This document shows, one piece after another, positions 765 through 45,210 of a stretch of 59,612 bases of DNA. Where the stretch lies: positions 1-59,612 of the IMG/VR virus record IMGVR_UViG_3300030329_003631, one strand, 5' to 3'. Within the stretch, counting starts at the first letter, position 1. Every line of letters begins with the position of its first letter. The notes under the pieces are model-generated. The model saw nothing but the letters and a program-made list of their open reading frames with translations. It had not been told where the DNA came from and did not search any database. Source of the DNA: a virus. A program made the position numbers and the translations under genes.

Positions 765-787
765 TTTAATTATTTTTACTATATTTG
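758..787 (+). promoter_or_regulatory. Promoter with -33 TTG and -7 TATATTTG
   Basis: TTG at 758-760 and TATATTTG at 780-787 (followed by C) are 19 bases apart, the expected Bacteroidota layout. It lies 25 bases before the start codon at 813 and would drive the YAHN-motif gene cluster and probably the terminase. Confidence 0.6.
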
Positions 788-812
788 CAACAAGCTGATA
801 AATATAATTATA

Positions 813-1286
813 ATGTATAGAGCACATAAAGAGAAATTTACTTGGAATAAAAGAACAACAAAGAGATCTTTGTATGCTCATAACCCACAAACTGATGTGA
901 TATTACCTAATGACCCTCCTGGACCTGGAAAAGGAAAAACTGGACATGACATAGTAACTAAATATGGTCTTCAACCAGAAGGTGATAAGGGAGGGGCTAA
1001 GGGCGCATCTTTTATAATGAAAGCTTTAAAGTATTCAAGAATGATACCTGGTTTTTTAAAGAAAGGGTTAAGCCTACCATCAATGATGCTTGGATCACAT
1101 AAAGCATATGGGGCTACAATATATGATGAAGAAGGGTTCAGTAAGATTACAGGATTAAACTATGCTGGACAGAGTCGTGAAGATATAGCATCACAAAGTA
1201 TGAGTCAAGAAGAGGCGGCAAAAATAACAGAAGGTTTAACATCACATATGTATCAGTCAAAATTAGCAGAAATACAAAATAGATAA
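813..1286 (+). CDS. YAHNP-leader small protein A
   Basis: This 157-residue protein belongs to no family I recognise. Its basic N terminus carries two motifs shared with the following genes: EKFTW at residues 7-11, and R-S-L-Y-A-H-N-P at 18-25. After the motif come a glycine/proline-rich stretch and a partly hydrophobic segment around residues 65-95 (FIMKALKYSRMIPGF). The C-terminal part is hydrophilic. It is the largest and first of five such genes at 813-2321, all packed closely before the terminase. The late position and shared leader suggest a virion or internal protein whose leader is a targeting or cleavage signal. That is inference. Confidence 0.75.
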   Translation: MYRAHKEKFTWNKRTTKRSLYAHNPQTDVILPNDPPGPGKGKTGHDIVTKYGLQPEGDKGGAKGASFIMKALKYSRMIPGFLKKGLSLPSMMLGSHKAYGATIYDEEGFSKITGLNYAGQSREDIASQSMSQEEAAKITEGLTSHMYQSKLAEIQNR

Positions 1287-1287
1287 T

Positions 1288-1473
1288 ATGAAAAAAATAT
1301 ATAGAAGAAAAACATATGCTCATAATCCAGAAACATATAAACTAACTGGGTTTGAAGCGCCAAAGAAGAGTTCTAAAAAATTTAGTGGCTTTTCAGGAGA
1401 AACAAGTGTTCCTTTAGGATCTCAGTCAAAAGTAGATCCTTCTGTAGATCCTTCTAAATTTTTAAATAAATAA
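1288..1473 (+). CDS. YAHNP-leader small protein B
   Basis: A 61-residue protein starting one base after the previous stop. The motif R-K-T-Y-A-H-N-P lies at residues 7-14, almost at the N terminus; unlike its neighbours it lacks the F-x-W element. The rest is Ser/Lys/Pro-rich and looks disordered, with the short repeat DPS near the C terminus. It has no membrane segment. Unknown function; it is grouped with its neighbours by the motif, which uses different synonymous codons in each gene. Confidence 0.7.
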   Translation: MKKIYRRKTYAHNPETYKLTGFEAPKKSSKKFSGFSGETSVPLGSQSKVDPSVDPSKFLNK

Positions 1474-1479
1474 ATAAAA

Positions 1480-1677
1480 ATGGAAAAATTTAACTGGAGT
1501 AAATCATCAAAAGAATCGCCTAATACGTCTAAGACAGGTAGAATTACTTACGCTCACAATCCAGCTGTAGCGGCTGCTATATTGCCATGGCTAGGTAAAG
1601 TGGCAGGAAAAGCATTAATTGGTGCAGGGATAAGTAAAGCAATGTCAGCTATATCGGGTGATGAGAAGTCAAAATAA
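1480..1677 (+). CDS. YAHNP-leader small hydrophobic protein C
   Basis: A 65-residue protein with KFNW at residues 3-6 and R-I-T-Y-A-H-N-P at 21-28. Directly after the motif comes a hydrophobic, Ala/Gly-rich segment (about 29-58) that could insert in or perturb a membrane, then a short charged tail. If the leader were removed at the motif, a free amphipathic or hydrophobic peptide of about 37 residues would remain. That is a hypothesis; only the motif and composition are seen. Confidence 0.72.
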   Translation: MEKFNWSKSSKESPNTSKTGRITYAHNPAVAAAILPWLGKVAGKALIGAGISKAMSAISGDEKSK

Positions 1678-1935
1678 ATGAAAGAAAAATTTACATGGGG
1701 TAAAAAATTAGCTAAATCAAGAATGGTTTATGCGCATAATCCTGCTACAACAGCAGCAGCATCAACTGGACAATTTACAGCAGCTATGAAAGCAGCTATG
1801 TTTAACCCTTGGGTAATAGGAGGTAGTGTATTGTTACATTCAAAAATGAGAGGATGGAAAAACGAAATGCAAGACGATATAGGAACAGTTACATATAGAT
1901 CTCAAAGTGGTTTACCAGGAACAAGTAGAGGATAA
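1678..1935 (+). CDS. YAHNP-leader small hydrophobic protein D
   Basis: An 85-residue protein whose ATG directly follows the previous TAA. KFTW lies at residues 4-7 and R-M-V-Y-A-H-N-P at 15-22, both near the N terminus as in the neighbouring gene. The part after the motif is Ala-rich with a hydrophobic stretch (about 38-56), then a hydrophilic C terminus. Unknown function; a likely small virion or ejected protein by context. Confidence 0.72.
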   Translation: MKEKFTWGKKLAKSRMVYAHNPATTAAASTGQFTAAMKAAMFNPWVIGGSVLLHSKMRGWKNEMQDDIGTVTYRSQSGLPGTSRG

Positions 1936-1985
1936 AAAATAAAGTATAAAGAAAAATAAATTATAAATAATAAAAATAAAAAATT

Positions 1986-2321
1986 ATGCCCTTAACAAAA
2001 TCATATAAAATGCCAAGCGTCAGAGGTGTATCTCCTATGAGTAGAGGAGACGAATTCGTTTGGTTAAATAATGGAGCAGGACCTATAATCAAAGGTTCCG
2101 AACCGTCATTAACTCCTAATTTTCATGATGGAGATAATCCCCCAAGTAATAGTCACCAGAATATAGCAAGCTCTAATAGAGTAAGCGGAGGACAAGATCC
2201 TAGCCAATCATTTAGAAAAGGAAAAGGAGTGTATGCTCATAATAGTCTTTTAACTCTTGGACTTGCTGGTGCTGCATTAGGAGCAGGACTGGGTGCTGGT
2301 AAAAGATTAACAGGAGGTTAG
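1986..2321 (+). CDS. YAHN-motif protein E, with an internal motif
   Basis: In this 111-residue protein the motif is far from the N terminus: K-G-V-Y-A-H-N-S at residues 80-87, followed by a Gly/Ala-rich hydrophobic tail of 24 residues. An F-V-W element resembling the F-x-W of the neighbours lies at residues 24-26 (after DE). The region between is polar and probably disordered. The motif again sits just before a hydrophobic segment, as in proteins C and D, which favours a processing or sorting role over a simple N-terminal signal. Function unknown. Confidence 0.7.
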   Translation: MPLTKSYKMPSVRGVSPMSRGDEFVWLNNGAGPIIKGSEPSLTPNFHDGDNPPSNSHQNIASSNRVSGGQDPSQSFRKGKGVYAHNSLLTLGLAGAALGAGLGAGKRLTGG

Positions 2322-2322
2322 G

Positions 2323-3315
2323 ATGGCTTATAGATACAGACCATATACATCTGGGTATATCAGCGGAGGAGGCTTCGGTGGTAGAAGAGGAGGTATCGGA
2401 AGATATCGAAGAAGTGGACTATCTAGAACTCTTTCTACTGTTGGAGGTATAGCTGCAGCAGGATTAACAGCTTATGCGCTTTTTAAAGGAGCTAAAGCTA
2501 TATCTAAATGGATAAAAACTAAAAAAGCAGATAGATCTAGAGCTGAGGATTATTTATCTAAATTCCCTGGAATAGAGAATAATAGATTAAATAGAAAAAT
2601 AGCAATAGCTAGATTAGATAATGATCAGGAAGCTAATTTAGAATTAAGCGCTAAAGCAGCAAGTAGAAGTCAAAGAAATAAAGAGCGTAAAGCAAAATGG
2701 GACGCTTTTAAAGATGATTTTAAAAACCTTGCTCAAGAAATAGTAAATACACCAGGCAATATACTTAATATACCAGCAGATCTAAGAAAGAAAAAAGCGG
2801 CAAAAGAAGAGGCTAATTATCAAAAATGGATGGATGAAAAAAATGAGCAAGCTAGGATAAATGCTGAATTAGAGAGCGGAGATATAATAGAAGAACCAGA
2901 AGTTGATGATCCAGAACCAGAAGTTGATGCTTGGAGAAAGAAAAAAGGAATTGGACCAGAAGGAGCTTTTTCAAGTACGAAAGAATGGGTTGACGCTTGG
3001 AATGTGGCAAAAGAAGCAAAATGGCAGAAAAAACAATCTGAATTAGAACAGCATTCTGATCCTTCAATTAGATTGAAAAAAATAACTGGAGATCCTTCTA
3101 TGAATATAAGTTTAGATAAATCACAGATTAAGTTAAATAAGAAAATTCAAAGCAGACAAAACTTAAAAGATGTAGAAAAATTTAATTTAGGTATATCGAC
3201 TAAGTTAAGTAGGGGCGAGATAACTAAAACTCAAGCTGATAGTCTATACAAGCCTTACCCATCTTCAGGTATTGATTGGGGCGTAAGTACTGAAGAATTT
3301 TTGAATCCAAAATAA
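2323..3315 (+). CDS. Basic Gly/Arg-rich protein with one hydrophobic segment
   Basis: A 330-residue protein. The N terminus is Gly/Arg/Tyr-rich (residues 1-38), followed by one hydrophobic segment around 42-62 and a long charged, lysine-rich helical region; a cluster of Glu/Asp/Pro lies near 188-204. Its start overlaps no gene, and it is followed within two bases by the HNH-like gene. It lacks the YAHN motif of the five preceding genes but has the same basic plus hydrophobic style. A structural or internal virion role is plausible from its position before the terminase. No family recognised. Confidence 0.65.
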   Translation: MAYRYRPYTSGYISGGGFGGRRGGIGRYRRSGLSRTLSTVGGIAAAGLTAYALFKGAKAISKWIKTKKADRSRAEDYLSKFPGIENNRLNRKIAIARLDNDQEANLELSAKAASRSQRNKERKAKWDAFKDDFKNLAQEIVNTPGNILNIPADLRKKKAAKEEANYQKWMDEKNEQARINAELESGDIIEEPEVDDPEPEVDAWRKKKGIGPEGAFSSTKEWVDAWNVAKEAKWQKKQSELEQHSDPSIRLKKITGDPSMNISLDKSQIKLNKKIQSRQNLKDVEKFNLGISTKLSRGEITKTQADSLYKPYPSSGIDWGVSTEEFLNPK

Positions 3316-7629: not shown

Positions 7630-9813
7630 GTGGATAGTTTAGTAGTTACCAGCGTCACAAGACCAAATAGGTTATTAGACGAAAAAAATAGAGAGTATCA
7701 TGCGCAATTTGCGAGATGGGCACTAAACGCTTGTCATGATTCTTATCATCAGCAGTTTATAAGAAAGACTGCAATAAACTGGAATTTCTATAAAGGTAAT
7801 CAATGGATATATGATGAAGATCTAGAGTCTTTCTTAATGGATGAATCTGGAGATGTCAGAAATAGAATAAAGGTTACACAAAATCTAGTACGCCCTATTG
7901 TAGAGCAATATGTTGGTAATGCTATTAGAATGAATTTTAACGCTAAAGCTGTTGGGGTTTCTGAATTCGTTACAAATAGGAGAGAAGAATCTTTAGATAA
8001 ATTAAGAATGGTTCATATGGTTATGGATGAATCTCCTAATACAGCAGAATATTTTCAAAGTAAATATCCAGTGGGAGATGATTTCGAAGAAACAAAGACT
8101 TTATTTGCAAATTCTTTTGTAGATGATTATGAGAAAACTCTAAATAACTTAATGAGGTATATATCAGAGAAGAACAACTTTGAAGAAAAAAAGGTTCAAT
8201 GTGCAAAACATTTAGCTGTATCTGGAATGGGTATATTAAAAAGTTACGAGAGAGATATGGAGCAATACTGGGAAGTAGTTGATCCTACTTTCTTCTTTTT
8301 TGATAAAGGAGCTAAAAGACCAGACTTAAAAGATTCTGAATTTATGGGTGAATATTCTTTTATGTTGCCTACAGATATATTTGAGATGTTTCAAGAGCTA
8401 ACACCAGAAGAAGTTGAAGCTATAGAAACTTATTCAAATAGTCAACCATCTACTGCTGGTGTTCCTCATCTTTCAAATATATTAGGTATCGGATCTAATA
8501 GAGTTCCTGTATATGAAGTTTATTGGAAAGATGTAGAGATACAAACTTATGGCTATATAGAAGATGAATTTGGTTATGAATATTTCACAGTAATAGGTGA
8601 TGATGTGTCAGAAGAAGATCTGATTATACCTAAATCAGAGATGGGTGTAAAAATTATGCAAGGAGAAAAAACAAGACAATTATTTGTAGACGTCCTTAGA
8701 TATGCTAAATTTATACCAGGAGAAGTTATTGGAACTTCTAATACAGAGATTGTACTAGAATATGGAACAGTTCCTTATCAGGAGGCAGACGCAGTTAGTC
8801 CTTCTAATGTAGAATTCCCTTATAAGGTATATTGCTGGAATTATAATAATGGTCAAATTATAAGCCCAATAGATGACGTTATAGATCCTCAAAGATTCAC
8901 TAATAGAGTTTTATCAGTTGCTGAGTCTCATATAAACAATTCAAGAGGTTCAGGAACTATTATAGACAGAGACACTGTAGACCCTCAAGGAGGAGAAGAA
9001 GATGTATTAAGAAACATGAATCTTAATAAACCTGTGTTTATTAATGCTAAAGGTAATGTTAATAACTCTGTAGGTCAATATAACTCAACTATGGGAGGAG
9101 ATGTAAATCAACTTTTTGGAGTTACAGAAGCTATGAGAGGAGTGATACAAAACATAACGGGAGTTAATGAGGCTATGACTGGAACAGGTGGAGGATATAG
9201 AGAATTAGTAGGAGTTAGAGAAATGCAGATAAACCAAGGATCTCTTATGCAAGAGCCTTTTTACTTTTGTTTATCTAGAATTTTATTACAAGCATATCAA
9301 AGTATGGTAACTCAAGGTAAGCGTATATATGCAGATAACCCTAGAGCTTTATCTATAGCAACTGGAGATGATGGAGTTAAAAGAATTGAGATAACTTCTG
9401 ATATGAAGAACGAAGACTTTAGAGTATTTATCAAACGTGCATCTAGCGAACAAGAACAAAAACAAGCAGCTAATGACTTAATGCTTACATTGCTTCAAGC
9501 TCAGTTAATAGATCAATCAGTATTTGCAGAACTGTTCGGCAAAGCAGATACAGAAGATGTAGCTAGAGCTCTTCGTCAGCATCAAGCAGAAGTAGCTAAA
9601 GCTCAAAAAGAAGCTGAGAAAGCTCGTCAAGAACAAATGGCTCAAGCACAAGAGCAGCAAGCTATGATGGAACAAAACGCAGCTCAAGAAATGGATAGGC
9701 AACAAGATAGACAAGATTGGATGAGAGTATTTGAAGGAGATAAACAAAGAAAACATGAAATGGACTTAATGTCCAAGAAGGAGATATTGAAGAATAGATT
9801 AGGAAATAAGTGA
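7630..9813 (+). CDS. Portal protein
   Basis: This 727-residue protein starts at GTG; no nearby ATG is in frame. It would form the dodecameric DNA gateway of the head. Evidence is its size, its place between terminase and capsid, the N-terminal region with RIKVTQNLVRPIVEQYVGN typical of podovirus-type portals, the central mixed alpha/beta body, and the C-terminal Gln/Ala/Glu-rich helix (about 640-700) that would form the barrel or crown. Glu/Asp-rich insertions around 270-290 are unremarkable. No nuclease or protease fusion is seen. Confidence 0.85.
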   Translation: MDSLVVTSVTRPNRLLDEKNREYHAQFARWALNACHDSYHQQFIRKTAINWNFYKGNQWIYDEDLESFLMDESGDVRNRIKVTQNLVRPIVEQYVGNAIRMNFNAKAVGVSEFVTNRREESLDKLRMVHMVMDESPNTAEYFQSKYPVGDDFEETKTLFANSFVDDYEKTLNNLMRYISEKNNFEEKKVQCAKHLAVSGMGILKSYERDMEQYWEVVDPTFFFFDKGAKRPDLKDSEFMGEYSFMLPTDIFEMFQELTPEEVEAIETYSNSQPSTAGVPHLSNILGIGSNRVPVYEVYWKDVEIQTYGYIEDEFGYEYFTVIGDDVSEEDLIIPKSEMGVKIMQGEKTRQLFVDVLRYAKFIPGEVIGTSNTEIVLEYGTVPYQEADAVSPSNVEFPYKVYCWNYNNGQIISPIDDVIDPQRFTNRVLSVAESHINNSRGSGTIIDRDTVDPQGGEEDVLRNMNLNKPVFINAKGNVNNSVGQYNSTMGGDVNQLFGVTEAMRGVIQNITGVNEAMTGTGGGYRELVGVREMQINQGSLMQEPFYFCLSRILLQAYQSMVTQGKRIYADNPRALSIATGDDGVKRIEITSDMKNEDFRVFIKRASSEQEQKQAANDLMLTLLQAQLIDQSVFAELFGKADTEDVARALRQHQAEVAKAQKEAEKARQEQMAQAQEQQAMMEQNAAQEMDRQQDRQDWMRVFEGDKQRKHEMDLMSKKEILKNRLGNK

Positions 9814-9855: not shown

Positions 9856-11052
9856 ATGTCAAAAGAAAACACCGTACCGCAAGAGGTCACCGAGAATCAA
9901 CGTCCTACAGCAGCGCCTGTAGAACCTGAATTAACTCCTGAAGCTCAACAAATTTCAACAGTGTTGAATGCAGTTAAGGAAAACCCAGCTTTAGCATCTG
10001 ATCCAGAAATCGCTAAAATAATGGAACTTGTAAATGAAAACCCAGGATCAAATGGACAGGCAGCTTCTGTTTCAAATCAGCAAGCACCACCAACTACAAC
10101 TGAAAGTAAATCTCCGTTTGTAGACAGAAATCAAACTCCTACACAACAAGCTGAAAATCAGCAAGTTGAAGAGTCAGTATTTTTTGGTAAGCAGCAACAA
10201 GCTGCTCAAGAACCTGCTCCTTCTGATTTATCAGAAGTGTATGATAGAATTAATAAAAAATATAGTATTAATACAGAAAATGGTATTGATAAGTTTTTTA
10301 ACTCTGTAGATACATGGAGAAAACAAGCTCAACAATCTTCTAAGATTGAAAGAGAGCTTAACGAAGTAAGACAGTCTTTTGAGTCTATGCCTCAACCATT
10401 ATTCAATGCATTTGAATCTTGGACAAGAGGAGAAGATTGGACTTCTCAAATTGTAAAAGAAGATACATATTTGGATTATACCAAACCTTTTGCTAATCAC
10501 GATAGAGAAAAAATGATCTCAAAGTATTTTGGAGATGATTACTCTGCAGAAGATATAGAAGATATGGATGGTAAGATGAAAACTAGACTATCTAAATTAG
10601 CAGAAAAACAATATACGATTGAACAGCAATCCTTTCAAACTGATAGAGCTAAATTACAGAACGCAAGAAAAGCTCAAGAAGAGCAAATAACTAGTTCTGT
10701 AGATTCTAGCTTAAACATTTTGAGAGAAGAGTTCCCTGAGTTTAATAATGATGCCCTATCAGAAATACGGCAAGCATTACTCAGCAACCAAGTAGATGCA
10801 TTGTTCAAAAATCAAGATGGCAACTATAGCGAAAATGCCGCTAAAATGTTAGCTTTCGCTCTCTATGGAGATGCTGAAAACAAACGTTTAATGAAAGTTG
10901 CGAAAAGACGTGGAGAATCAGAAGCGACAGAAAAACTTGTAACCAGAGGTTCAGATACGCCATCTGTAAAAGGTTCGCAAATAAATCAACCTCAAGATGT
11001 TAACCAAGTTGTAAAAATGTTTGATGGTCTGTTTCCGAAAAGCACTTATTAA
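9856..11052 (+). CDS. Scaffold-like head assembly protein
   Basis: A 398-residue hydrophilic protein rich in Gln, Glu, Ala and Pro. The first 125 residues look disordered with PEA- and QQ-rich segments. Residues about 150-300 form charged helices likely to be coiled coil, and the C terminus is basic. Its place between portal and capsid is the classic position of a scaffolding protein, which guides prohead assembly and then leaves. No protease motif is visible, so it is scaffold only, not a protease-scaffold fusion. Confidence 0.7.
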   Translation: MSKENTVPQEVTENQRPTAAPVEPELTPEAQQISTVLNAVKENPALASDPEIAKIMELVNENPGSNGQAASVSNQQAPPTTTESKSPFVDRNQTPTQQAENQQVEESVFFGKQQQAAQEPAPSDLSEVYDRINKKYSINTENGIDKFFNSVDTWRKQAQQSSKIERELNEVRQSFESMPQPLFNAFESWTRGEDWTSQIVKEDTYLDYTKPFANHDREKMISKYFGDDYSAEDIEDMDGKMKTRLSKLAEKQYTIEQQSFQTDRAKLQNARKAQEEQITSSVDSSLNILREEFPEFNNDALSEIRQALLSNQVDALFKNQDGNYSENAAKMLAFALYGDAENKRLMKVAKRRGESEATEKLVTRGSDTPSVKGSQINQPQDVNQVVKMFDGLFPKSTY

Positions 11053-11080: not shown

Positions 11081-12322
11081 ATGTCTACATTGTACACACC
11101 ATCTGTACCTCCTGCAACTTCTTATAGAAATGCAGACCTCAACTCGTTAGCGTCTACATATGCGTCTACGCATGGTCATAATACTACGGCTTTAATTCAA
11201 AGAATCGTAAAAGAGCTTATCTATGATGCTGCTCCTCAGCAATTCTTTGACTTAAAATTATTAGGTATGAAACCTATGGAACAGATCGCATCAGACGAGT
11301 GGTACTACCACGAAATGGGTTTTGGACGTGAGGCGATTGTTGCTACTGCTACAGCTGGAGCTGGAGCTTCGCAAACAATCACAGTGTCTTCTACAGATAA
11401 TATATCTGTTGACACTATTTTAGTATACCCAGACAACACTAAGGGTATCGTTACAGCCATTGATTCGGCTGCTAGTACTATTTCTGTTTCTAATTATTCA
11501 GGAGCGGGTAACTTAACTGCTGTCGCTATTAGCGATAGTTTTGCAGTTCTATCCCCTGTTGAAGCTGACGGAATGGATAGTATTTCTCAATACTTCCGTA
11601 TTGACACTGTTGAAAAACACAATTATGTTCAAATGCTTGTAAAAGCAATTCGTTTTGGTAAAATGGAACTTTACAAATACCAAAATGCTGGAACAACTTC
11701 TAACTACCTTTCTATGCAAAAGCAAAGAATGTTACAACAATTCAGAATTGATATGTCTAACGTTCTATGGAATGGTACTCAAGGAGAGGTTACTCTAGCT
11801 AATGGTATGAGAGCTAAAACTACTGGTGGAATTTTCCCTATCATGGTTGCAGCAGGTTCTCCAAGTGCTTCTACTACTATTGCTTCTTTACCACAAGCTG
11901 TTGAGCAATTAGCTCTTGATACTGAGTTTAAAGCTCTTGGTCATGTAAGATTCTTATATGCTACTCCAAGAATGCTTCATAACTTATCTCAAGAGTACAA
12001 GAGAGACTTAACTAGATATGCGCCAGACGATGAGATGGCAAAACTAGATCTTAAGGCTATCGATATGGGATCTTCTAAAATTGTATTCGTTCCTATGAAA
12101 CGATTTGAAGAGCCATCTTGTTTCCCTTCAGTATGGGCTAATCGTCTAGTCTTACTAGACCAAGAGTCTGTATCTTGTGTTAGAGTATTCCCAGACGAAA
12201 TGGGTGAAACTCTTAATAGAGAGGACGGATCATTAAACAACTACACTGATTATTGGATTTCTACAACAATGGGTGTTCAGTTTAATAATCCATTAGGTTC
12301 AGGTTATATTGATGTAACCTAG
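11081..12322 (+). CDS. Major capsid protein (HK97-like fold)
   Basis: A 413-residue protein, the likely building block of the icosahedral shell. It follows portal and scaffold genes, has relatively GC-rich, optimised-looking codons, and has the order expected of HK97-fold capsid proteins: an N-terminal arm (about 1-40), an E-loop-like region, and C-terminal P- and A-domain segments. A Ser/Thr/Ala/Val-rich beta insertion around 88-160 (AGASQTITVSS) could be an added domain on the shell surface. No cleavage site is obvious. Strong leader and downstream hairpins suggest separate control of its level. Confidence 0.85.
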   Translation: MSTLYTPSVPPATSYRNADLNSLASTYASTHGHNTTALIQRIVKELIYDAAPQQFFDLKLLGMKPMEQIASDEWYYHEMGFGREAIVATATAGAGASQTITVSSTDNISVDTILVYPDNTKGIVTAIDSAASTISVSNYSGAGNLTAVAISDSFAVLSPVEADGMDSISQYFRIDTVEKHNYVQMLVKAIRFGKMELYKYQNAGTTSNYLSMQKQRMLQQFRIDMSNVLWNGTQGEVTLANGMRAKTTGGIFPIMVAAGSPSASTTIASLPQAVEQLALDTEFKALGHVRFLYATPRMLHNLSQEYKRDLTRYAPDDEMAKLDLKAIDMGSSKIVFVPMKRFEEPSCFPSVWANRLVLLDQESVSCVRVFPDEMGETLNREDGSLNNYTDYWISTTMGVQFNNPLGSGYIDVT

Positions 12323-24081: not shown

Positions 24082-27000
24082 ATGGCTAAAACTCAAGAAG
24101 AATTAGAAGAAGAGAAAAGAAAGAAGGAAGAGGAGTTAGGTATTTCTCTTCCTGATTTAGATTTTGGGGGCGACTCTAAAGATACTGTAGGTCTTCCTGA
24201 TTTAGATTTTGGAGGGGAGGTTGATGAGCCTATCGATTTATCTTTACCAGATTTAGATTTCGGAGGTCAGGCAGATGATATAGTGGTTGATCAAGATCAA
24301 GGTCCTGAAGTAGACGAATATGTTTCTTCTGAAATAACTGACGAAGAAGTTCTTGAAGAAATTTCAAAATACCAAACAATACAAGATTTTGAATCAGCTA
24401 TACAAAGAGGAGAAGTATCCGATAATGCTTATAAATGGTATGCAGGACAATCAGACGATCCAATTCCTTTTGGAGCAGGAACAGGGAATTTAGATATTGA
24501 AACACAGAATTTAGATTTATCACAAAACAGAAAAAGATTCTATTCTATATATGGCTTTGGGGCTGATTATAATGAGGTATTTTTTGATAATTTTGGGATG
24601 TCTCCAGAAGACGCTGAAATAAACGAGGCAGACGCTGTAAACTTATTAATAGATATGGCTATGAATACAGCGCCAGAACCTAAAGGAATGTATCCTGCTA
24701 GCGAATATGAGATGGGTTTAAATGAGATGAAACTAGCCTGGGAAACTCCTTATGAAACACCCTTAGAAGATAAAGCCTTATTCAAACCTTATATAGATAA
24801 TAAATCTTATGGAGTAAATGACCTTAGTAGATTTAGCGAAGGAAAAGATCAAGATTTTTTAAATATTACAACTTTAAATCCAAAATTTCAAGAGTTTAAA
24901 GATGATGGAAATAATCTTAGTTTTAATCCATTATATACAGGTAGATGGTCTATAGATGGAAGTGATCCTAATAAACTTCCTACTGAAAAGAATTGGCAAG
25001 ATATGTATAAGATATTTAAAGAGGATGATTATGTAGATCAAATGACAACAGCTACACTTAAGCGTTTTCCTAAATTAGATGAAGATGAAGTAAAGGCTTA
25101 TTTTCAAAATGAATCAAAAGTAGCTAGACAACAAGCTACAAATAATCTTATTAATCATAAGATAAGACAAATATTCGATGAAGAGAGAAGTTTAGCTAAA
25201 AAACGTGGAACAGGTCTTCCTACAAATATAGAGGATATTGTTTATAAAAAATTAAAACATAGAACAATGTCAAATCTTTTAGGTCCAGAAGGTATTGTAA
25301 AGGATAAGATAAAAGGCATTTATAACATGCAAGAAGGTATGGGTGGAAAGTTTTATAATAAAATTATAAATCTTATAAATATGGAACTTGATGGAGCTTC
25401 CCCTGCACAGCTTCAGGCAGAAGCAGATCTAATTAAAGAAGCTCATCCAAACTGGAAAACACTTTTTAAATATAGTGATGGAATGTTAGTAAATCCTGGT
25501 AAAGCCCAAGGAGGACCTCCTCCTGAGTTTCAAGGAGAGATTCAAGAATTTCTAGACCGTTATAAAAATTCTTCTAAAGAATTAATATTTGCAGAATTAG
25601 CTTCGTTAACTGCTTATGCAGAAAATCTTAATAATTTATTACAATCAGATGCTTCTTGGGTTAATAAAAGATCTGGGAAAGTAATGGATCGTAAATTCGC
25701 TCAATTAATCGATACTTATATCGAACATCCTGATTCTGAATTTATGGGCAGAGTTAATAGATTAGGTATGTCTGCAAAGAGAGAATATGATTTAACATTA
25801 GCAAAAATAACAGCATTAACTCGTATGTCTTTATTTAATGAAGATATATTAACCTCTCAAAAGAAAGACGGTATGCATTATGTAAGCACAATAGGAGGAT
25901 CGCTTGTTGAAGGATTGGCTTGGGGACCTGGTAAAAGAATGATTAAGGAACAAATGGAATTAGACGCACCTAGATATATGTTAGGTAGACATATAGATAT
26001 ATATAACGATTTAGGAATAACTTTAAATAAAGAACAAAAAAAGAATATAGAAGAAGTATATAGAACAAGTTTTGGAGAAAAACTTGGAATAGGAGGAGCT
26101 CATCTTCTCGGTATGTTACCTAAATTTATGTTTGGTGGAGCAATAATAGAAGGAGTTGCAGGAAGTGTTGGTCTTGCGCAATATATAAACAGTTTATATA
26201 TAAGCGGAAGTAGAGCAAAACAAGCTGGAGCATTTCTTATAGAAGCTGGAATACAGGAAGCAACTTTTGTTGCAATTATGGGTCCTGAAGCAGTTGGTGT
26301 TGGTACTACTTTTGCTGTTGGAAAAATACCGTCAAATATTATGCTTAATAATTGGATGAAAATATTTGCAAAGAATCCTAAGTTAGGAGCTGCATTACAT
26401 CCTTATGCTAAAGCTGTTGGAACTGGAGGTACTTTTGTAACGGCTACCGAACTACATACAGCAATAGTTGCTTATAAAAATTCAGATAGCTGGACAGAGA
26501 TGAAAGAAAAAATGGGATGGAATGATTTAGGAGGAAAATTTGAAGATATGGCTGTTAACTTTATATTAGGTACTACTCTTGGTTTTGCTCATACAAAATC
26601 ACATGAATATTCTATGGATGCCAAAAAATTGCAAGCTCTTTCTGCTGAGTTCATAAGAATAGGTGATGTTAAAATGGCAGAGCAACTTTGGATGAGATCT
26701 CAATGGGTTCAAGGGAAACCAGCTCGTAATCTTGGTGAATTGCTATCTAATTTTGAAATGAGTGCATTTGGAGATATGAGTATAAAACAATTTATGAAAA
26801 TTAATAAACTAACTCTTCACGCAAAAGGAGCTGACGGAAAGGTAAGACAAATAACTCCAGAAGAATTATATTCAACACTTGGCCTTGAGCAGGTATATTT
26901 TAAAACTCTAACAGGACAAAGTAGGTTTCAAGGGGAACTTGTTCGAGATCCATCTGGAAGAGGTTTTACACATGTAGATAACAAAGGGATGACTAATACT

Positions 27001-30000
27001 TTTTCATATGCTCATGAATTAAGAGCATGGCTGCAGGCTAATAAAGGTGTAAAGCTTTATGGAAGAAAAAGAAAAGATGGAGCGATAGAAGAAATAACTC
27101 CAGAAGAAGTATTCTCAAAAAAACCTATTCAAGATATACAAATTCGACTTGATGATAAAGGAGTTCTGATTCAGAAGGGGTCAGCTCACTTTAGGCTTAA
27201 CGGAAAAGAAGTGGATATTTCAAAATTACAAAAATTTCCAGATTTTGGTAAAATGCTTAATAAAAAGGAACGAATCGAAATGGAGCAAAAACTAAGGGAA
27301 ACAATTTTAGGAGAATCATTACGTAAACCTAAAACCAAACCAGGATCTGAAGGAGTTACTCCAGGGCAAAAAGCATTAACAACTTCTGTTTCAGCTGAAC
27401 CCCCTTCAAAAACAATAAAACCCAAATATATAGTTTTACCTCCAACTCCCTCTGTAACACCTGTTAAAACTGGCCCTGTAAGAGCTGGACTACCTGCACC
27501 TAAATCAACAGAACCTATACCAATCTCTCAAACCGCAGAACAAGTCCAGTCTAATGTAAATCAATATACTAGCTTACATCAACCTGTTAGTTCTAAAAAC
27601 ATTAAATCAACACCTACAGATTCTCAAACTATTAAAAATAAACTTTCTTCTATTAGAAAATCATCTGAAAATATTACAAAATGGGAGAAGGAAAGAAGTC
27701 AATTAACAGTTGGCTCTCCAAAAGCTCTTAAGCTTACAGCAAGAATAGATAAGGAAACAAAGTCTATAGAAAAACAACAAAAAGAAATTAGAAAACAAAG
27801 AATTAGAGACGCTAAAAAAACTGAAGTCGGTAAAAAGCTTTCTGAAATACAAGAAACAACTTCTAGTGTAAGAAATTATTTAGATAACAACAGATTGTCT
27901 CCTGTTGATAAAAGAAGATTAAAAAGTATGGGAATTGACTTTACCCAAGTAATGAAGGAAGATTTGAATATTAGAAAGATAACAGATGACTTGAATTATG
28001 ATGTAAGTAGAATTCTTAAAACAGGACAATTAGATATAGGTTCTTATCAAGTTATACTTGAAAATTTTGGAGAACTTATGTCAGGTATGACGTCTAAAGT
28101 AGATATATTTAAAGCAAAACAATTAGATATAAAACCTCCAACTGTAGAGAAAGGAATTTCAGATTATTTAAAGAAAGGTAAGATTCCTTCTTTTAAATTA
28201 GAAGACGCTAGAGTTTCTATACAAGCCTCTAAGTTATCTGATGTAAAAAAAGCTGAAATAATTCAAGAAATAGATAGAGCTATAGATCTAAGAGATAAGA
28301 GCTTAAAAGTTTTTGAAGGAAAGGAACCTAAGAAAACTATATTACTTTCAAAACCAGGAAAGTTAAAAGGAGAAAAGAAAGTAGTTATGGAAGCTACTTA
28401 TAATAAAGATACTGGTTTTTATAGGATACCTAGTCAATATAATACTAAGGACTTAGTTAATAGGTTAAAAGATATGATTACTTTAACTAAGAGTAATAAT
28501 CAACTTAAGAATATAGCAACCTTTGTATCTAGGACTATAGACTTAGATACTAAGTCTTCTGATGCTCTTAAAAAACATATAGCTAGAAAAGCTATTAATA
28601 TGATGAAGGAGAATAAGATGACTAATAGCGTTTCTATAAATCACTTTAGAGATATAACAACAAATATCCTTCCTTTAGTTTTAACTCCAAAACAAAGAGC
28701 TACTATGCCTTCAGAAATAAAAAAATGGATGGCAAATGCAATGACTTTGTATAGCAATAACCCTAGATCAAAAATACATTGGAAAAAAAGATATGATATG
28801 ATAAGTGGAAATTTAGCAAATATTGCAGCTAAGTCTCCTAGTACATTATCTCCTGCACAACTTCCAGCAATTGCTACTTGGTTTGCAAATCATGTTACTA
28901 AAACTGTTCTTAAGGATTTAAACGATAGATATAAAGAGATAACACAACCTGAGTATTTAGAAAAAACTATAAAAAATGAACTGTTAAAAAGTATAGCTAA
29001 TAATCTTCCTAAAAATCAATTTTTAGTTCCTAAATCTAAAATTAGAGAAATAAGCAAGAAATTTTCTGTTGTAAAAGATTTAATAGATAACTTAGATCAT
29101 TTAGTTGATAGAGGAGGTCTTTATTTAGAAGAAGCTACATATATAAAAGAACGTATAGCTTATTATCCAGATTTGAATATATTACAGTCTTCTTTAGATG
29201 GATTTTTTATAGGAGATACTTGGACTGAAGTAGCAAGAGATTATGCTGCTATAGACAATCCTACAACGCCTTGGGAAGCTCTTTCTTCTGCTGGTAAAAA
29301 GAGGTATTTGGATATTATCCGTCCTAAAGATGCAAAAGGAACCTTAGCATATTATAGCCCTGCAAATAAAATAATATCTGTATTGACTTCTGATGTAAAA
29401 ATAGGAACTGGAAAATTAGTTGAAAGTATATTAGAGGAACTTGACCATGCTTATATGCATGGATATATGACTTCTTATAGTAATTTAGGAGAAGGAGTAG
29501 ATGCTTATTTAAAAGATCAGCTTTCTGTAAGTTATACTTCAGGACTTAGGTCAACAGATATACATGTAAAACATGGATTAGTATCTGACGCAATAAAAGA
29601 TATATTTAAGATAGACATTAAAAAACCTCATACATGGGAAAGCGTTAAGCAAGATCCAAAGGCTGAAGAAACGAGAATCATAAACGAATTTAGTATAGAA
29701 GATGTTGAAATAATAGATAACACTCTTGCTGAACTACATTCTAAAGACTATAAAAAAGATATAAGTGTATTTCAGTTAATAGCACCAAAGACTAGCAAGT
29801 CATGGTTTAAACCTATTATTAGAACTATAGATGGCGAAAAGTACTTATCAACATTTAAAGACTTTGATGTTAAAATGTTTAATGCAATTTTAGCTTTATA
29901 TAATAACACTAAATATAAATACTTAGTAGAAACTCCTAGAGTAGAAGGAATGGAAGTTTTATATAAATTATCAGAGGTAAACAGAAGTGTAGCTAATCCT

Positions 30001-33000
30001 TATTCTTCAGCTTTACAGAATTCAGGATTAGGAGTATTTGATATTCATTCGCATATAATAGAATTGTATAACAAAAATTTATGGAACTCTTTCTTGTCTA
30101 ATAGTAAATCTAAAGACCCTGCAAAGGCGGTAAGAGGCTATAAAAGCCTTCCTAAGCCCTTTGAAATGTCAGGATATACTCTAGACATAAGAGGAGTAAA
30201 AAATCCTTATCTAGACGCATCTAATGAAGGTATATATGAGGAACATATTAACAGAATAAATAGATTTGTTAATAAAGTTGTAAACAAAACAGGCAAAACA
30301 AAAGAAAGTGTATTAATTGAAATTAATAATCATATAACGAAAGTAAAGAAAGAACTAGGTTCTTTGAATAATCCTTTTGGAAAATCAAATGTAAAAATAA
30401 GTCATGAGAGATATATTGCTAGCGGAAGAGCATCAAGCCCTTTAAAAGAGGCTTATGAGTCAGAGTCTGTAAGGAAGAAAAGATATTCTTCATGGACAAA
30501 AAATAAAGAAAACGCTATAAGAAATATGTCTTTAGCTACGAGAGCTATTAACTCAAAATTAGGAGCAAGTAATAATTTATCCACAAGAATTCAAACAGAT
30601 GCAGATGGAAGTATTAGTTGGAAAATACAATCTGGATTAAAATCTGGAAAAATAACTGTTGTTGATGGTTATGGAGGAAGAGAATTTGTTGGAGGTAAAT
30701 ATGAATTTAGAGTTGTTACAGAAGATGTAAACGGATTAGGCAAGCTACACACTGTTTCTTTAACAAGGTCTGAATTAAGAGATGCAAAGTTTGGAGGAGG
30801 AAGAGGAGAAAAAAGAGGTTTAATGCAAATAGTTTTTGAAAAAGTTATAAGACAGAATTCTGGAAAAAAACTAATAAAAAAGATACCTGATAGCCCTGAA
30901 ATTATTCAAAGTATAATAAGCAATCTATCTAAAACTTCAAATCAAAACTCATTAGTTTTATTGAAAAAATGGAGAGATGAATTTTCCGTATCTAATAAGT
31001 TATTTGGAAAAAATATAAGCGAATTAACTGAAGCAGAGATGAGCGTGCTAAGACGTAAATTCGAACATCCAGAAACAGCGGAAGAGAAAAGACTAAGTAA
31101 TTTATTAACTGAACTTATCTCAGATCTTACAGAGGCTAAAAGTTTTTCTAACTTAAGAGTTAAGGGATTTACAACTAAAGGAGTAGATTTAAAAAAATCA
31201 GATATATTTTTAAACCCAAATAGAAAAATAGGATTAAAGGGATACACTGATTTTAAAGTAATAGACTTAGTAGATAGGTTAAATGAGTATGAGTTAATAA
31301 AACAATCTAATGAAAGTGCGTTTAAAAGACTCTATAGATTTATGTCTTCATTTTATGAAAACGCATATGCCTTAAGAGAGGAATCTCGTAGAGTTATTAC
31401 AAACTCAACTAGAATACTGGGAGATAAAAAAGTGGAGATAAATGGGAAAGAAACGACTTTTGCAGAAGCCTTTCAAGATCTTAATGGGCAATTAACATCA
31501 GAATATTATGAGCAACTACAAAAATCAATGGTTGACTTTTTAAATCAAGCAAATATATCGGAGAGTTCTCTTAATGCTTTTGGAAAAGAATTCCCTGAGT
31601 TTTATGGAAGTAGAGGTTTTATGAATCTAAAAGAAGCTGTTAATTTAGCAAAAGTATTCGACACTATGTATGGCAAAGAAGGTACTTTTAAAGAGTATCC
31701 GCCTCCAGAAAAAGAAATGGCTATAAAAGCTATAGCTAAAAAGATAAGCGATTTTAATATAAATTCTACTTTTAGAGACATAGAAATAGCGTCTAAAGAA
31801 GAGTTTAAAAACTCTATGGAGCATTTAAATTTTACTGCAAAAGAATATCTAGAGTCTTTAAAAGACTTGCAAGAAATATTAAAAAATAATTTGCCTAAAA
31901 TTAATTTAAAAGATATTGAACAGAAGCTAACGTCTGATCAGTTAAAAGATTTAGTATTAAAAAATATACAATCACTGATTGACCACGCTCAGAAAAATAT
32001 ACCAAACAACATTGTATCTAAAAAAGGAGAATTTGAAAGCTCATGGAAGTTAGAATTAGAAAAGATAAATTCCTTATTTGGAGGAATGGAATTTGAAAAA
32101 GGTACTGAGATTCAAACCACTAAAAAAGAACCTATTATACAAGAAGGAAAAGGATTAGATTTAGGAGACTCTCAAATGAGTATATTAAAACGTTGGGCTA
32201 ATGATGGGAGTTTAGGTGAGGCTTCTCAATGGAAGGAGGTATTTTCTGTAAAAAAAGGAGTTAATAGCTTTGGAGATGTTAACAGAGGTAGTGATTTTAT
32301 CTCTGGTTTAAAACTACAACCTATAAAACCTAGAGAGAATACAGTTATGTTTGTAATGGAGTCTGGCGGTGAAGTAGCAGGTATATTAAGAGTTATTAGA
32401 GGAGAAGATCCTTCTATGCCAGGAAAAGAAAGTATGGTAACTCATTCTAGAGTACATCCTTTACTAAAGAAAAAAGGATTAGGTTCTAGAATGTATACTG
32501 CAGTTAATCAAGTTTTAATTAATCAAGGTTGGGATCCTATTGTTTCTGATCCTAGATTAACTAATGAAGCTGGCTCTTTATGGAGATCATTGGTAAAAAG
32601 AGGATTAGCAGAAGAGATAACTGATACGTATGGATACACTAGATATAAAATGTTAGAGGTTCCAAAATCTACTGTACCAAAAGAAAGAAAACCTGGGAAA
32701 GTAACTGTTGATGAGTTATTGCCAGAAGTAAAAAGCATGAAAACTCCTTTAGCTCTTGATAAGATAGCTGAATCTAAATACTACCTACCTTATACAAGAT
32801 ACGCTTCAGAGTTTCAAGAATCTTCGGTTAGGTTTTCTATTGGAGCAGATCAGGTTACTAGAGTAATATTTGTAAACCAAATTGAGGTAAGTACAGAAAA
32901 TGCTAAATGGGCTATAGAAAAGTTAGCAGAAATGGGGCATGATATATCAAAGCATGATGCTAATAATGTATTTGATATGATTTATTCAATTGCATCTGCT

Positions 33001-36000
33001 TCAAGTAGATTTAGCAAACCAGATCTTAGAATTCCTTTATATAAGATAGTAGAAGACCCAACTGTAACTGGAGGGGCTAGAATTGAATCTATGGAAGCTT
33101 TTACAGATATAGGAAAAGAAAGAAAAGTAGTTACTGGAGTTAACAAGCCTATAGAAAGCGCTGTAGATGCTGTTAAAGATGCTTTTTCTCAAATGCAAAA
33201 TGCTGGAGATATAGAGGCTAGAAAAAGATTAATAGAATCTGTAAAGATTAGTAAAGAAGCATCTGATATTATAGAGAGACTAGAAAAAGGTATCATATCT
33301 GCGACAGGAGATTATAGTAAAGATTCAGGATATGAAACAGATGGTTTTGATACGTTTTTATCAAACATAGATTCTAAAAACTTTAATTATCTAGACAGAG
33401 TAGCTATAACAAATAAGATAATAGAATTATTCTCTAGTACTAGATATGATGGATCTTTCTCTGCATTTGAAGTTATGACAGGAAGACAAGAAGGTATAGT
33501 TCCTGTTCAAGATAGATTGTATATAAATAATATAGAAAATATAGAGCAAGGAAATATTATAAAAGATGTATTTGGAAATGAATATATGTATGTGAATCAT
33601 ATGGCTTTTCCTGTATCTTCTATAAAATATGCTTCTGATAAAGTATTAGATATATTAAACAGAACTGGAAACACTCCAATTCTTAACGTTCATCATCAAG
33701 TTCCAAAAAATTCTATTGACTACACTAAAGATAGAGTTTTTAGAACTACTATGGGATTTATAGTTCTTAATGAAAAAGCTGACTTCAAAAGAATTAGTGA
33801 GCATAAACCTTCTGCTAGTAATGTTCGTGTTAAAGACGTTTTAGAATTCTTTTACGGTAAAGAATTTAAACATAGTACTGCAGGTACTAATCTAACTATA
33901 GAGGCTCAAAGATTTTTCTCTAGTGTTTTAGATCCTCTTATTCCTGTTCACCCAAGAGCTAAAGAGGCTGAAGGATATATTGTTGATATAGAAAAAAGAG
34001 AAATAATGAATTCTTCTCAGGGTTTATCTTCATTGATAAATTCTTTAGAAGAGCATATGATAAAGAATACATCTAGAGATGGTTCTGACGCAAATGTAGA
34101 CAGGAATATAATACAATCTTTAACAGGTCCAGATGGAAAGATAACGAATAATCCTAATCAGGCTATCTGGGATGCGTATAATTTTAATCCACAAAAAAGA
34201 ATATGGGCTAATACTCCTCAAGAAGTTTCAGATTATATAAGAAACTTTATAGAGCAAAAAAGAATGTTTGAATTTTCAAATTTAGAAAAAGCATCTCAAT
34301 ATTTAAAAAACTTTGTTGACATATGGGTTAAGCATGCTGTTTTAGAAGGTAGGCAATTTAAAGGAGTAACAACAAGAAAATTAGATCAAAAGTTATTAAA
34401 AAATATATTTATACCAAAATTAGATAGGTCAGGTTTAGAGAGTTACATCACTCATGTAGAAAAAGTCGCAGAGTTATTGAAAAAAGAAGAGGCTTATAAT
34501 CTTATAGAAAATATAGCAAAATGGAGATCAAAAGTTAAAAAATACGCAGGAAAGAAAGGAGATGTTATCTATGAAGATGCTATGGGTAAACTAGCTAGAA
34601 TTAGTTTAAAAAACATGACTGAAATACAAGAATTTGAAGAGTACTTATCTCTTTTGAAAACAAGAAGATTGGAGAATCTTGACCTTGTTAATGACTACAT
34701 AAATAAAAAGAAGGCAGAAAAAGTTGTAGAAGAAATAGATTCTTGGGATAAAGATAATGGAGACAAAACAGACAGCGCAGACTCCGATGCTCCTTTTGAA
34801 CTAAGTGTAGAAAAAGAAGCTATGAAAGAAACGGTTAAAGTTGTAAAGAATTCTTTAGATTTAAATGACCCTATATACGATAGAAAAATTCCTTTTATAT
34901 CTAAATATTTAAATATTAGCGATTTAATCTTTGATTCAAAGTATGAAGATGTTATCCCTCACTCTTTACAAAAGAAATATATAGAGAGTATGAATCCTCT
35001 TATTGGAGGAAGAACTACTAATGAAATGTATAATATCTATGTAGATGTTATGTCTAAGGTTATTAATAAAGAATTTAATGAAGGGTTATCTAAAGATAAT
35101 ATGGAAATCTTTAGCAAGAAATTAGAAAAAGGTACTGCTTGGATTTTATTTGATCAGTTTAAATTAAATGGTCCTGCTCCAGGAATGATGAGTATTAACC
35201 ATATAGGAGCTTATTTTGGAGATAAAGGAATGACTACAAAAAATACATTCCATAAATGGATATTAAACGAATTAAATGATGCTGACGGAAGAGTTATAAA
35301 AGCAACCTCGCAAATACAAAATAGATTAATCAGCAAAGCTGCTGAATTAAAATTAAAAGGAGGGGATAGACATGTTGCAAATATAGTTGGAATGCTTACA
35401 GAAAAACCTCATCATTCTTTAACTACAGATAATATAAAGAAAATATTAGAATTAGAAGCTGCTGGATATAAGCCAGAATTATTTACTGAATTAAAAAAGC
35501 AAGGAGATTTAAAAACTGTTATTCAAGATGCTATACTAAAAACTGGAGGAGAAGGATTAAACTTAAGCCCTTACGAAACTAATAAATCTCGAGCAGCTCT
35601 ATATAATATAATCAATTCTTTATTATTAGATATAAAGAAAGACACAATACTTGTTTCCTTAGGAAAAGAAACTGGAGATATAAGTAGGGCTGAAATAAAA
35701 GAAAAAATGAGAGATGCTTATTTTTCAGGAGCAAGTAATGCTATAAGAAAATACGAAAAATTAGTTGATAGATGGGTCTCTAAAAGAGGTTACAAAAGTG
35801 TAAATGAATTTTTAGATGATGTTATAAACAGAAAAGAATCTGTTCTTGATAACGACCCTAATGTTATGGAGTTTTTAAATGAGTGTAGAACTACTTGTAG
35901 AGATGTCGCTACAGGAGTTTATACAGAAGGAATGGGTATACGAGAACTTGCAGCTCTTACAGGAGTAGAGTCTCCATTTTACGAAGATTATATGCCTTTA

Positions 36001-44841: not shown

Positions 44842-45210
44842 ATGTATACCTATAATATCAAATTATTAAGAGTTGTAGACGGAGATACTGTTGATGCTAA
44901 TATTGACTTAGGATTTGATGTTTGGGTTAAAAAGAGGATTAGATTTATGGGTATTAATACTCCTGAATCTAGAACTAGAGATTTGGAAGAAAAAGCTAGA
45001 GGGCTAGCTGCTAAAGACAGAGTTAAAAATCTGTTAGAAGGATGTAATAAGATTCAGCTCAATTCTCATGGTGTCGGAAAATACGGCAGATGTTTAGGAG
45101 AGCTACTTATAGACATGGTTGATGGGCACGAAAAGTTAACAATGGAAAGTGTTAACGAATTATTAATCAAAGAAGGTCATGCTGTTGCATACTTCGGAGG
45201 AAAAAGATAA
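44842..45210 (+). CDS. Staphylococcal nuclease-like protein
   Basis: A 122-residue protein with the SNase/thermonuclease fold: VVDGDTVDA near residue 11, RFMGINTPESR around 33-43 and GKYGRCLGELL around 76-86. These hold the family's calcium-binding Asp and catalytic Arg, Glu and Arg. It would cut DNA or RNA. No signal peptide is seen, so it should act in the cytoplasm, perhaps degrading host DNA late or serving packaging. It starts five bases after the holin-like gene. Confidence 0.82.
   Translation: MYTYNIKLLRVVDGDTVDANIDLGFDVWVKKRIRFMGINTPESRTRDLEEKARGLAAKDRVKNLLEGCNKIQLNSHGVGKYGRCLGELLIDMVDGHEKLTMESVNELLIKEGHAVAYFGGKR

Follow-up and report, generated by a model that had tools for sequence, protein, structure and literature searches.

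A two-part peptide leader shared by small basic proteins encoded ahead of a phage terminase: a candidate virion-targeting signal

The window analysed here (bases 1-59612 of the 71,046-base record of an uncultured virus) encodes, in five consecutive genes, small proteins that share the peptide YAHN, and this shared motif is confirmed as real. We see about an even chance that the five genes form a cassette in which a podovirus-like phage encodes small, basic cargo proteins of the virion, with a two-motif targeting leader. Among the matches listed, the motif is known in two genomes, the second being L021, a 6.9-kb fragment (6,954 bases) from a close relative.

A peptide shared by five consecutive genes

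The initial annotation reported five adjacent open reading frames with a common motif at residues 18-25, 7-14, 21-28, 15-22 and 80-87, and both the frames and the positions were recovered as described. YAHN occurs in exactly five proteins of the whole record, once in each. A search of the whole record with the codon pattern TAY GCN CAY AAY returned five matches, all on the forward strand and all in the cluster, while the reversed control pattern returned none. YAHN is the commonest identical 4-mer among the five proteins (5/5); when residues were shuffled 20,000 times, the best-shared 4-mer was found in two proteins or fewer in 19,887 shuffles and in more than three proteins in none. A scan for motif sharing among neighbouring small proteins gave 17.9 for the window cluster against a best of about 10 among 11 relatives. 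Together, the shuffles and this control scan rule out a chance origin of the motif. In codon usage, all five frames match the structural genes better than other frames do.

The consensus of the motif, called box 2 below, is [R/K]-x-x-Y-A-H-N-[P/S]. Its four central residues are identical in all five window proteins, as had been claimed; the basic residue proposed at -3 is K or R in every window copy, but the rule does not extend to a relative's YIHN copy (EKKYIHNP). The codons of YAHN (TAT/TAC, GCT/GCG/GCC, CAT/CAC, AAT/AAC) vary in their third positions and are constant in the first two, and therefore it is the peptide that is kept. A DNA repeat or RNA element is ruled out, since synonymous positions vary while the peptide is retained and no Rfam family matched; the earlier view that selection acts on the peptide rather than on a DNA repeat thus holds. 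The features of the cluster and its surroundings, all on the plus strand, are as follows.

780..788, +: TATATTTGC, promoter-like element of the Bacteroidota -7 type, 24 bases upstream of gene 1
813..1286, +: tagged protein 1, 157 aa, pI 9.6; open reading frame with fitting codon usage, no Pfam or PHROGs family
831..851, +: protein 1 box 1, EKFTWNK, residues 7-13
864..887, +: protein 1 box 2, RSLYAHNP, residues 18-25
1288..1473, +: tagged protein 2, 61 aa, pI 10.0; box 2 only, no hydrophobic segment
1306..1329, +: protein 2 box 2, RKTYAHNP, residues 7-14
1480..1677, +: tagged protein 3, 65 aa, pI 10.0; similar to L021 protein d, C-terminal part hydrophobic and rich in Ala and Gly
1483..1503, +: protein 3 box 1, EKFNWSK, residues 2-8
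1540..1563, +: protein 3 box 2, RITYAHNP, residues 21-28
1678..1935, +: tagged protein 4, 85 aa, pI 10.4; no base separates its start codon from the stop of protein 3
1684..1704, +: protein 4 box 1, EKFTWGK, residues 3-9
1720..1743, +: protein 4 box 2, RMVYAHNP, residues 15-22
1986..2321, +: tagged protein 5, 111 aa, pI 10.0; Gly/Ala-rich hydrophobic stretch after box 2
2049..2069, +: protein 5 box 1, DEFVWLN, residues 22-28, 57 residues from box 2
2223..2246, +: protein 5 box 2, KGVYAHNS, residues 80-87
2323..3315, +: sixth cluster gene, 330 aa, basic, untagged; tblastn to L021, 40% over 57 residues
3317..3580, +: HNH protein (PF13392), 80% identical in L021
3581..5818, +: large terminase; 82% identity to the L021 protein, 38-57% across the wider family
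9856..11052, +: scaffold-like protein between the portal and capsid genes (19-sequence alignment)

The tagged proteins are all strongly basic (pI 9.6-10.4). Motif and repeat scans detected no similarity among them outside the boxes, which agrees with the initial impression of little likeness beyond the motif; a second box, however, had been overlooked. Box 1, [E/D]-x-[F/W]-x-W-x-[K/N], lies 10-57 residues ahead of box 2 in four of the five proteins, with W-to-Y distances of 10, 18, 11 and 57 residues in gene order; in the last of these, protein 5, box 2 is internal (residue 80). The pattern [FW]xWx[NK] reached four of the five proteins in none of 20,000 shuffles, and elsewhere in the genome this pattern occurs once, inside a 1,668-residue protein. 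Because the spacing varies from 10 to 57 residues, a fixed domain is disfavoured, and a pair of short docking motifs joined by a flexible linker would fit better. An AlphaFold model of protein 1, made without an alignment, is uninformative, with a mean pLDDT of 44. Neither Pfam nor PHROGs holds a family for proteins 1-5, and in the literature searched the peptide appears only in an unrelated phage-display epitope study.

With the promoter-like element upstream of them, the cluster genes open an operon that also includes the HNH and terminase genes. Further downstream are a P22-type portal (7630-9813; PF16510, E 8e-32) and an SU10-type major capsid protein (11081-12322; PF17236), and the window also encodes a DnaB-type helicase, a holin, and thioredoxin-like and SNase-like proteins. 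The motif TANNTTTGC, which we take to be the Bacteroidota -7 promoter element, is enriched in the window (26 copies against 15.4 expected, with none of 100 shuffles reaching 26), and in L021 TATCTTTGC stands ahead of the first gene of the cluster. We infer a Bacteroidota host, an assignment that is tentative because it is based on the pattern of this promoter element.

Several other features of the window were recorded. An array of about 10 copies of a palindromic heptamer (TACTTAG/CTAAGTA) lies at 238-336, with the divergent early genes on one side and the cluster on the other, and has the look of an operator, an origin or a packaging site. It is separated from the gene at 546-764 by a strong, terminator-like hairpin at 398-424 (CTCCCCG...CGGGGAG); that gene encodes a 72-aa Cys-rich, DUF6171-like protein (PF19668; phrog_13558) and is kept in L021 directly before the cluster. 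Positions 24082-37890, more than one-fifth of the window, encode a protein of 4,602 residues that matches nothing in Pfam, and a homologue of staphylococcal nuclease is found in the late region (44842-45210; PF00565, E 1e-11).

Recurrence and the slot before the terminase

The IMG/VR collection was scanned with a codon pattern for R-x-x-YAHNP, giving 17 stretches among the matches listed, and L021 is one genome in which the cluster can be recognised. Ahead of its HNH and terminase genes stand small genes whose products begin MKEQWSWNKPIRRREVYAHNPSP..., MAKENFTWLN...GEKKYIHNPAPLIAAALPALIGG... and MEQWNWNSDP..., the first two with both boxes (W-to-Y distances of 39 and 10 residues). The third has box 1 only, lacks YAHN, and is a SET-domain protein, matching PF00856 over the full profile (positions 1-105 of 105; E 9e-7) with 29.7 bits, above the curated cut-off of 22.4; it also weakly matches PDB 4rz0. 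This gene (L041:2302-2643, on the minus strand of L021) thus places a lysine-methyltransferase-type domain on a small phage protein by a terminase operon. With protein 2 lacking box 1 and the SET protein lacking box 2, neither box is obligatory. One L021 protein (d) is like protein 3 in its Ala-rich C-terminal part and the rest have no counterpart in the window. The product of the sixth gene, with a basic start followed by a Gly/Ala-rich helix, is kept in L021. The two genomes thus have the putative leader in common but differ in most of the payload. The initial annotation had made its reading depend on recurrence in related phages; the motif does recur, but among the matches listed this is limited to the one close relative.

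A wider family, recruited by a pattern from a conserved stretch of the terminase, comprises more than 100 contigs with 38-57% terminase identity and the same gene order where they are long enough. In 100 family records, Y-[A/I/V/T]-HNP gave four matches, all in short or antisense open reading frames, and the YIHNP matches in family members were discarded for that reason. L103/L201, the nearest at 57% among the matches listed, shows no comparable cluster ahead of its terminase. Since relatives at 57% identity or less lack it, the motif is not general for this head type. Other searches gave the following: no motif cluster was seen in prokaryotic genomes among the matches listed, and the prokaryotic scan with a terminase pattern of the close clade had no match; scans with single- or two-sequence terminase or portal patterns found at most L021 or distant loci; and INPHARED, searched by DNA, protein and leader, had no match for the cluster, and the motif was not seen in named phages. 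A cultured relative was searched for and none was found. In the viral and prokaryotic collections, isolated codon matches to RxxYAHNP were, L021 excepted, unrelated single hits. A single copy among the tail genes of an unrelated phage (L034; RRNRYAHNPVGAP) is taken as chance. A combined scan for an FxWxK box and YAHN gave seven loci, none of them a relative.

In many relatives, the same-strand slot just before the terminase is occupied by several small proteins rich in lysine, and their sequences vary from phage to phage. Their net charge per residue averages +0.109, compared with +0.027 in other small open reading frames; the P value makes this difference look stronger than it is, because the sequences are related and not independent. 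Two neighbouring slot proteins of L154 have about 60 N-terminal residues in common (LAAALERANAGRQAKL...) and diverge beyond them; this pair (minus strand, about 2057-2960 of the reverse complement) consists of basic proteins with different C-termini, and its sequence is unrelated to the window leader. Two slot proteins in each of L046, L053 and L099 share an LKxxIxxAxxKA-like start, a pattern derived from the same data. From these cases, shared leaders on different payloads may be a habit of the locus, with each lineage having a leader sequence of its own. Behind the terminase of L103 (10906-13732), two proteins encoded close together both begin with MLKPFGFFG and both contain a repeated YS[L/M]EFDG module; these are probably decoration or fibre proteins.

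Packaging and the rival readings

The initial annotation offered three options for the motif, namely a processing site of a phage protease, a virion-packaging tag or a membrane-targeting signal, and its interpretation is partly supported. A packaging tag fits best, given the leader that moves between payloads, the docking-like two-part motif, the basic payloads, the leading place in the terminase operon and the turnover of payloads. In four of the proteins, the leader would consist of two linear docking motifs joined by a linker whose length varies, and in protein 2 of the second motif only. During assembly, these motifs would bind a head component, which may be the scaffold-like protein, the portal or the inner surface of the capsid; the unrelated payloads would be packed into the particle and leave it with the DNA at infection, and some of them may then act on membranes or DNA. 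In L021, one payload would be the SET-domain methyltransferase, if box 1 alone suffices. The scaffold-like protein at 9856 is a plausible docking partner, because in most members of its family the N-terminal half is acidic and the leaders are basic; its 19-sequence alignment holds no conserved catalytic set. More tentatively, the leader may be a portable, previously undescribed virion-targeting signal that loads rapidly changing small effectors, the methyltransferase included, and the slot cassette may correspond, in this phage family, to the internal-protein locus of T4, with its own leader per lineage.

The sharp conservation of four to five residues at a variable distance from the start, with a basic -3 residue in all five window copies, could also mark a processing site: a protease of the phage or the host would cleave at YAHN-P or close to it and free a mature C-terminal part, perhaps after packaging as in T4, where the targeting sequence is cleaved off (PMC3012670, PMC9024508). 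This we regard as quite unlikely. The initial annotation had suggested looking for a co-occurring protease gene, and none was recognised in most of the late proteins (Pfam and PHROGs profiles, which a highly divergent protease could escape); the motif is also missing from the capsid, portal and scaffold proteins, and the reading is weakened by both findings. Moreover, the product encoded between the portal and capsid genes looks like an acidic scaffold and not a protease, and cleavage would leave box 1 unexplained.

Plain paralogy is likewise unlikely as a full account. Here, the genes would have arisen by tandem duplication from a single ancestor, and the boxes would be the parts that have changed least, kept for a shared function other than sorting, for instance that of a small subunit of one complex. 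It explains proteins 1, 3 and 4, whose box-1 coding DNA is still 80-86% alike, and the similar Ala-rich C-terminal part kept by protein 3 and L021 protein d also speaks for it. It does not explain box 1 on the SET-domain protein or the 57-residue box spacing of protein 5, and the motif and repeat scans found nothing in common beyond the boxes. Duplication of the leader alone would be compatible with packaging. Small viral proteins are often recruited to one partner by short linear motifs, and the boxes might draw the proteins, after late expression and with no packaging, to some target inside the infected cell, of host or phage origin, such as a membrane, cell-division or nucleoid protein. Several payloads do have Gly/Ala-rich hydrophobic segments, but the genes stand at the start of the terminase and head operon, and we find this account distinctly improbable. 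As for simple membrane targeting, the suggestion is weakened because protein 2 is tagged and has no hydrophobic stretch (maximum Kyte-Doolittle value of -0.20 over 17 residues).

If the packaging reading is true, a recognisable leader in this uncultured family would allow injected proteins to be listed by sequence alone, and the locus would be an accessory site possibly holding anti-defence proteins. It would also open the variable small basic genes ahead of the terminase to direct tests of their role.

Comparison with known packaged proteins

Packaging leaders are known from few phages, for example T4 and P1. P22 ejection proteins (gp7, gp16, gp20) and the cargo of crassviruses are ejected proteins of the head or tail in phages with the same portal type, and the crassvirus cargo is large (60-277 kDa), with no common peptide tag noted in the available text of that source (PMC10172136), in contrast to the small tagged proteins of the window. 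Over a third (34%) of its length, the window portal shows only about 23% identity to the portals of crassviruses; the capsid protein had no match in the test for Crassvirales affinity, and the terminase gave only a weak match, to another phage group. The motif codons are missing from cr113_1, and a crassvirus link through the portal was rejected.

In P1, the first 30 residues of DarB, part of the Dar antirestriction system, package a reporter (PMC9024508). Like the window leader, this is a short N-terminal signal (30 residues or fewer, head-targeting), but it has been tested and sits on one large protein of 251 kDa, and we claim no sequence likeness between the two.

The T-even internal proteins are diverse except for a conserved capsid targeting sequence (PMC3012670). 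As in the window, IPI, IPII and IPIII are small proteins sharing only a short leader, with the rest diverse between related phages (PMC3012670), and they are encoded in a clustered accessory locus (PMC3012670; PMC9391042). The window leader is, however, unrelated in sequence to the capsid targeting sequence and in two parts, and its phage is podovirus-like with a P22-type portal, packaging being a prediction. Although the window proteins share a leader and little else, we do not file the cassette with the T4 internal proteins, because proteins 1-5 showed no Pfam or PHROGs homology to those families and no prohead protease was recognised by profiles in most of the late proteins. The best reading is that the leader would work like the T4 capsid targeting sequence while standing outside that family.
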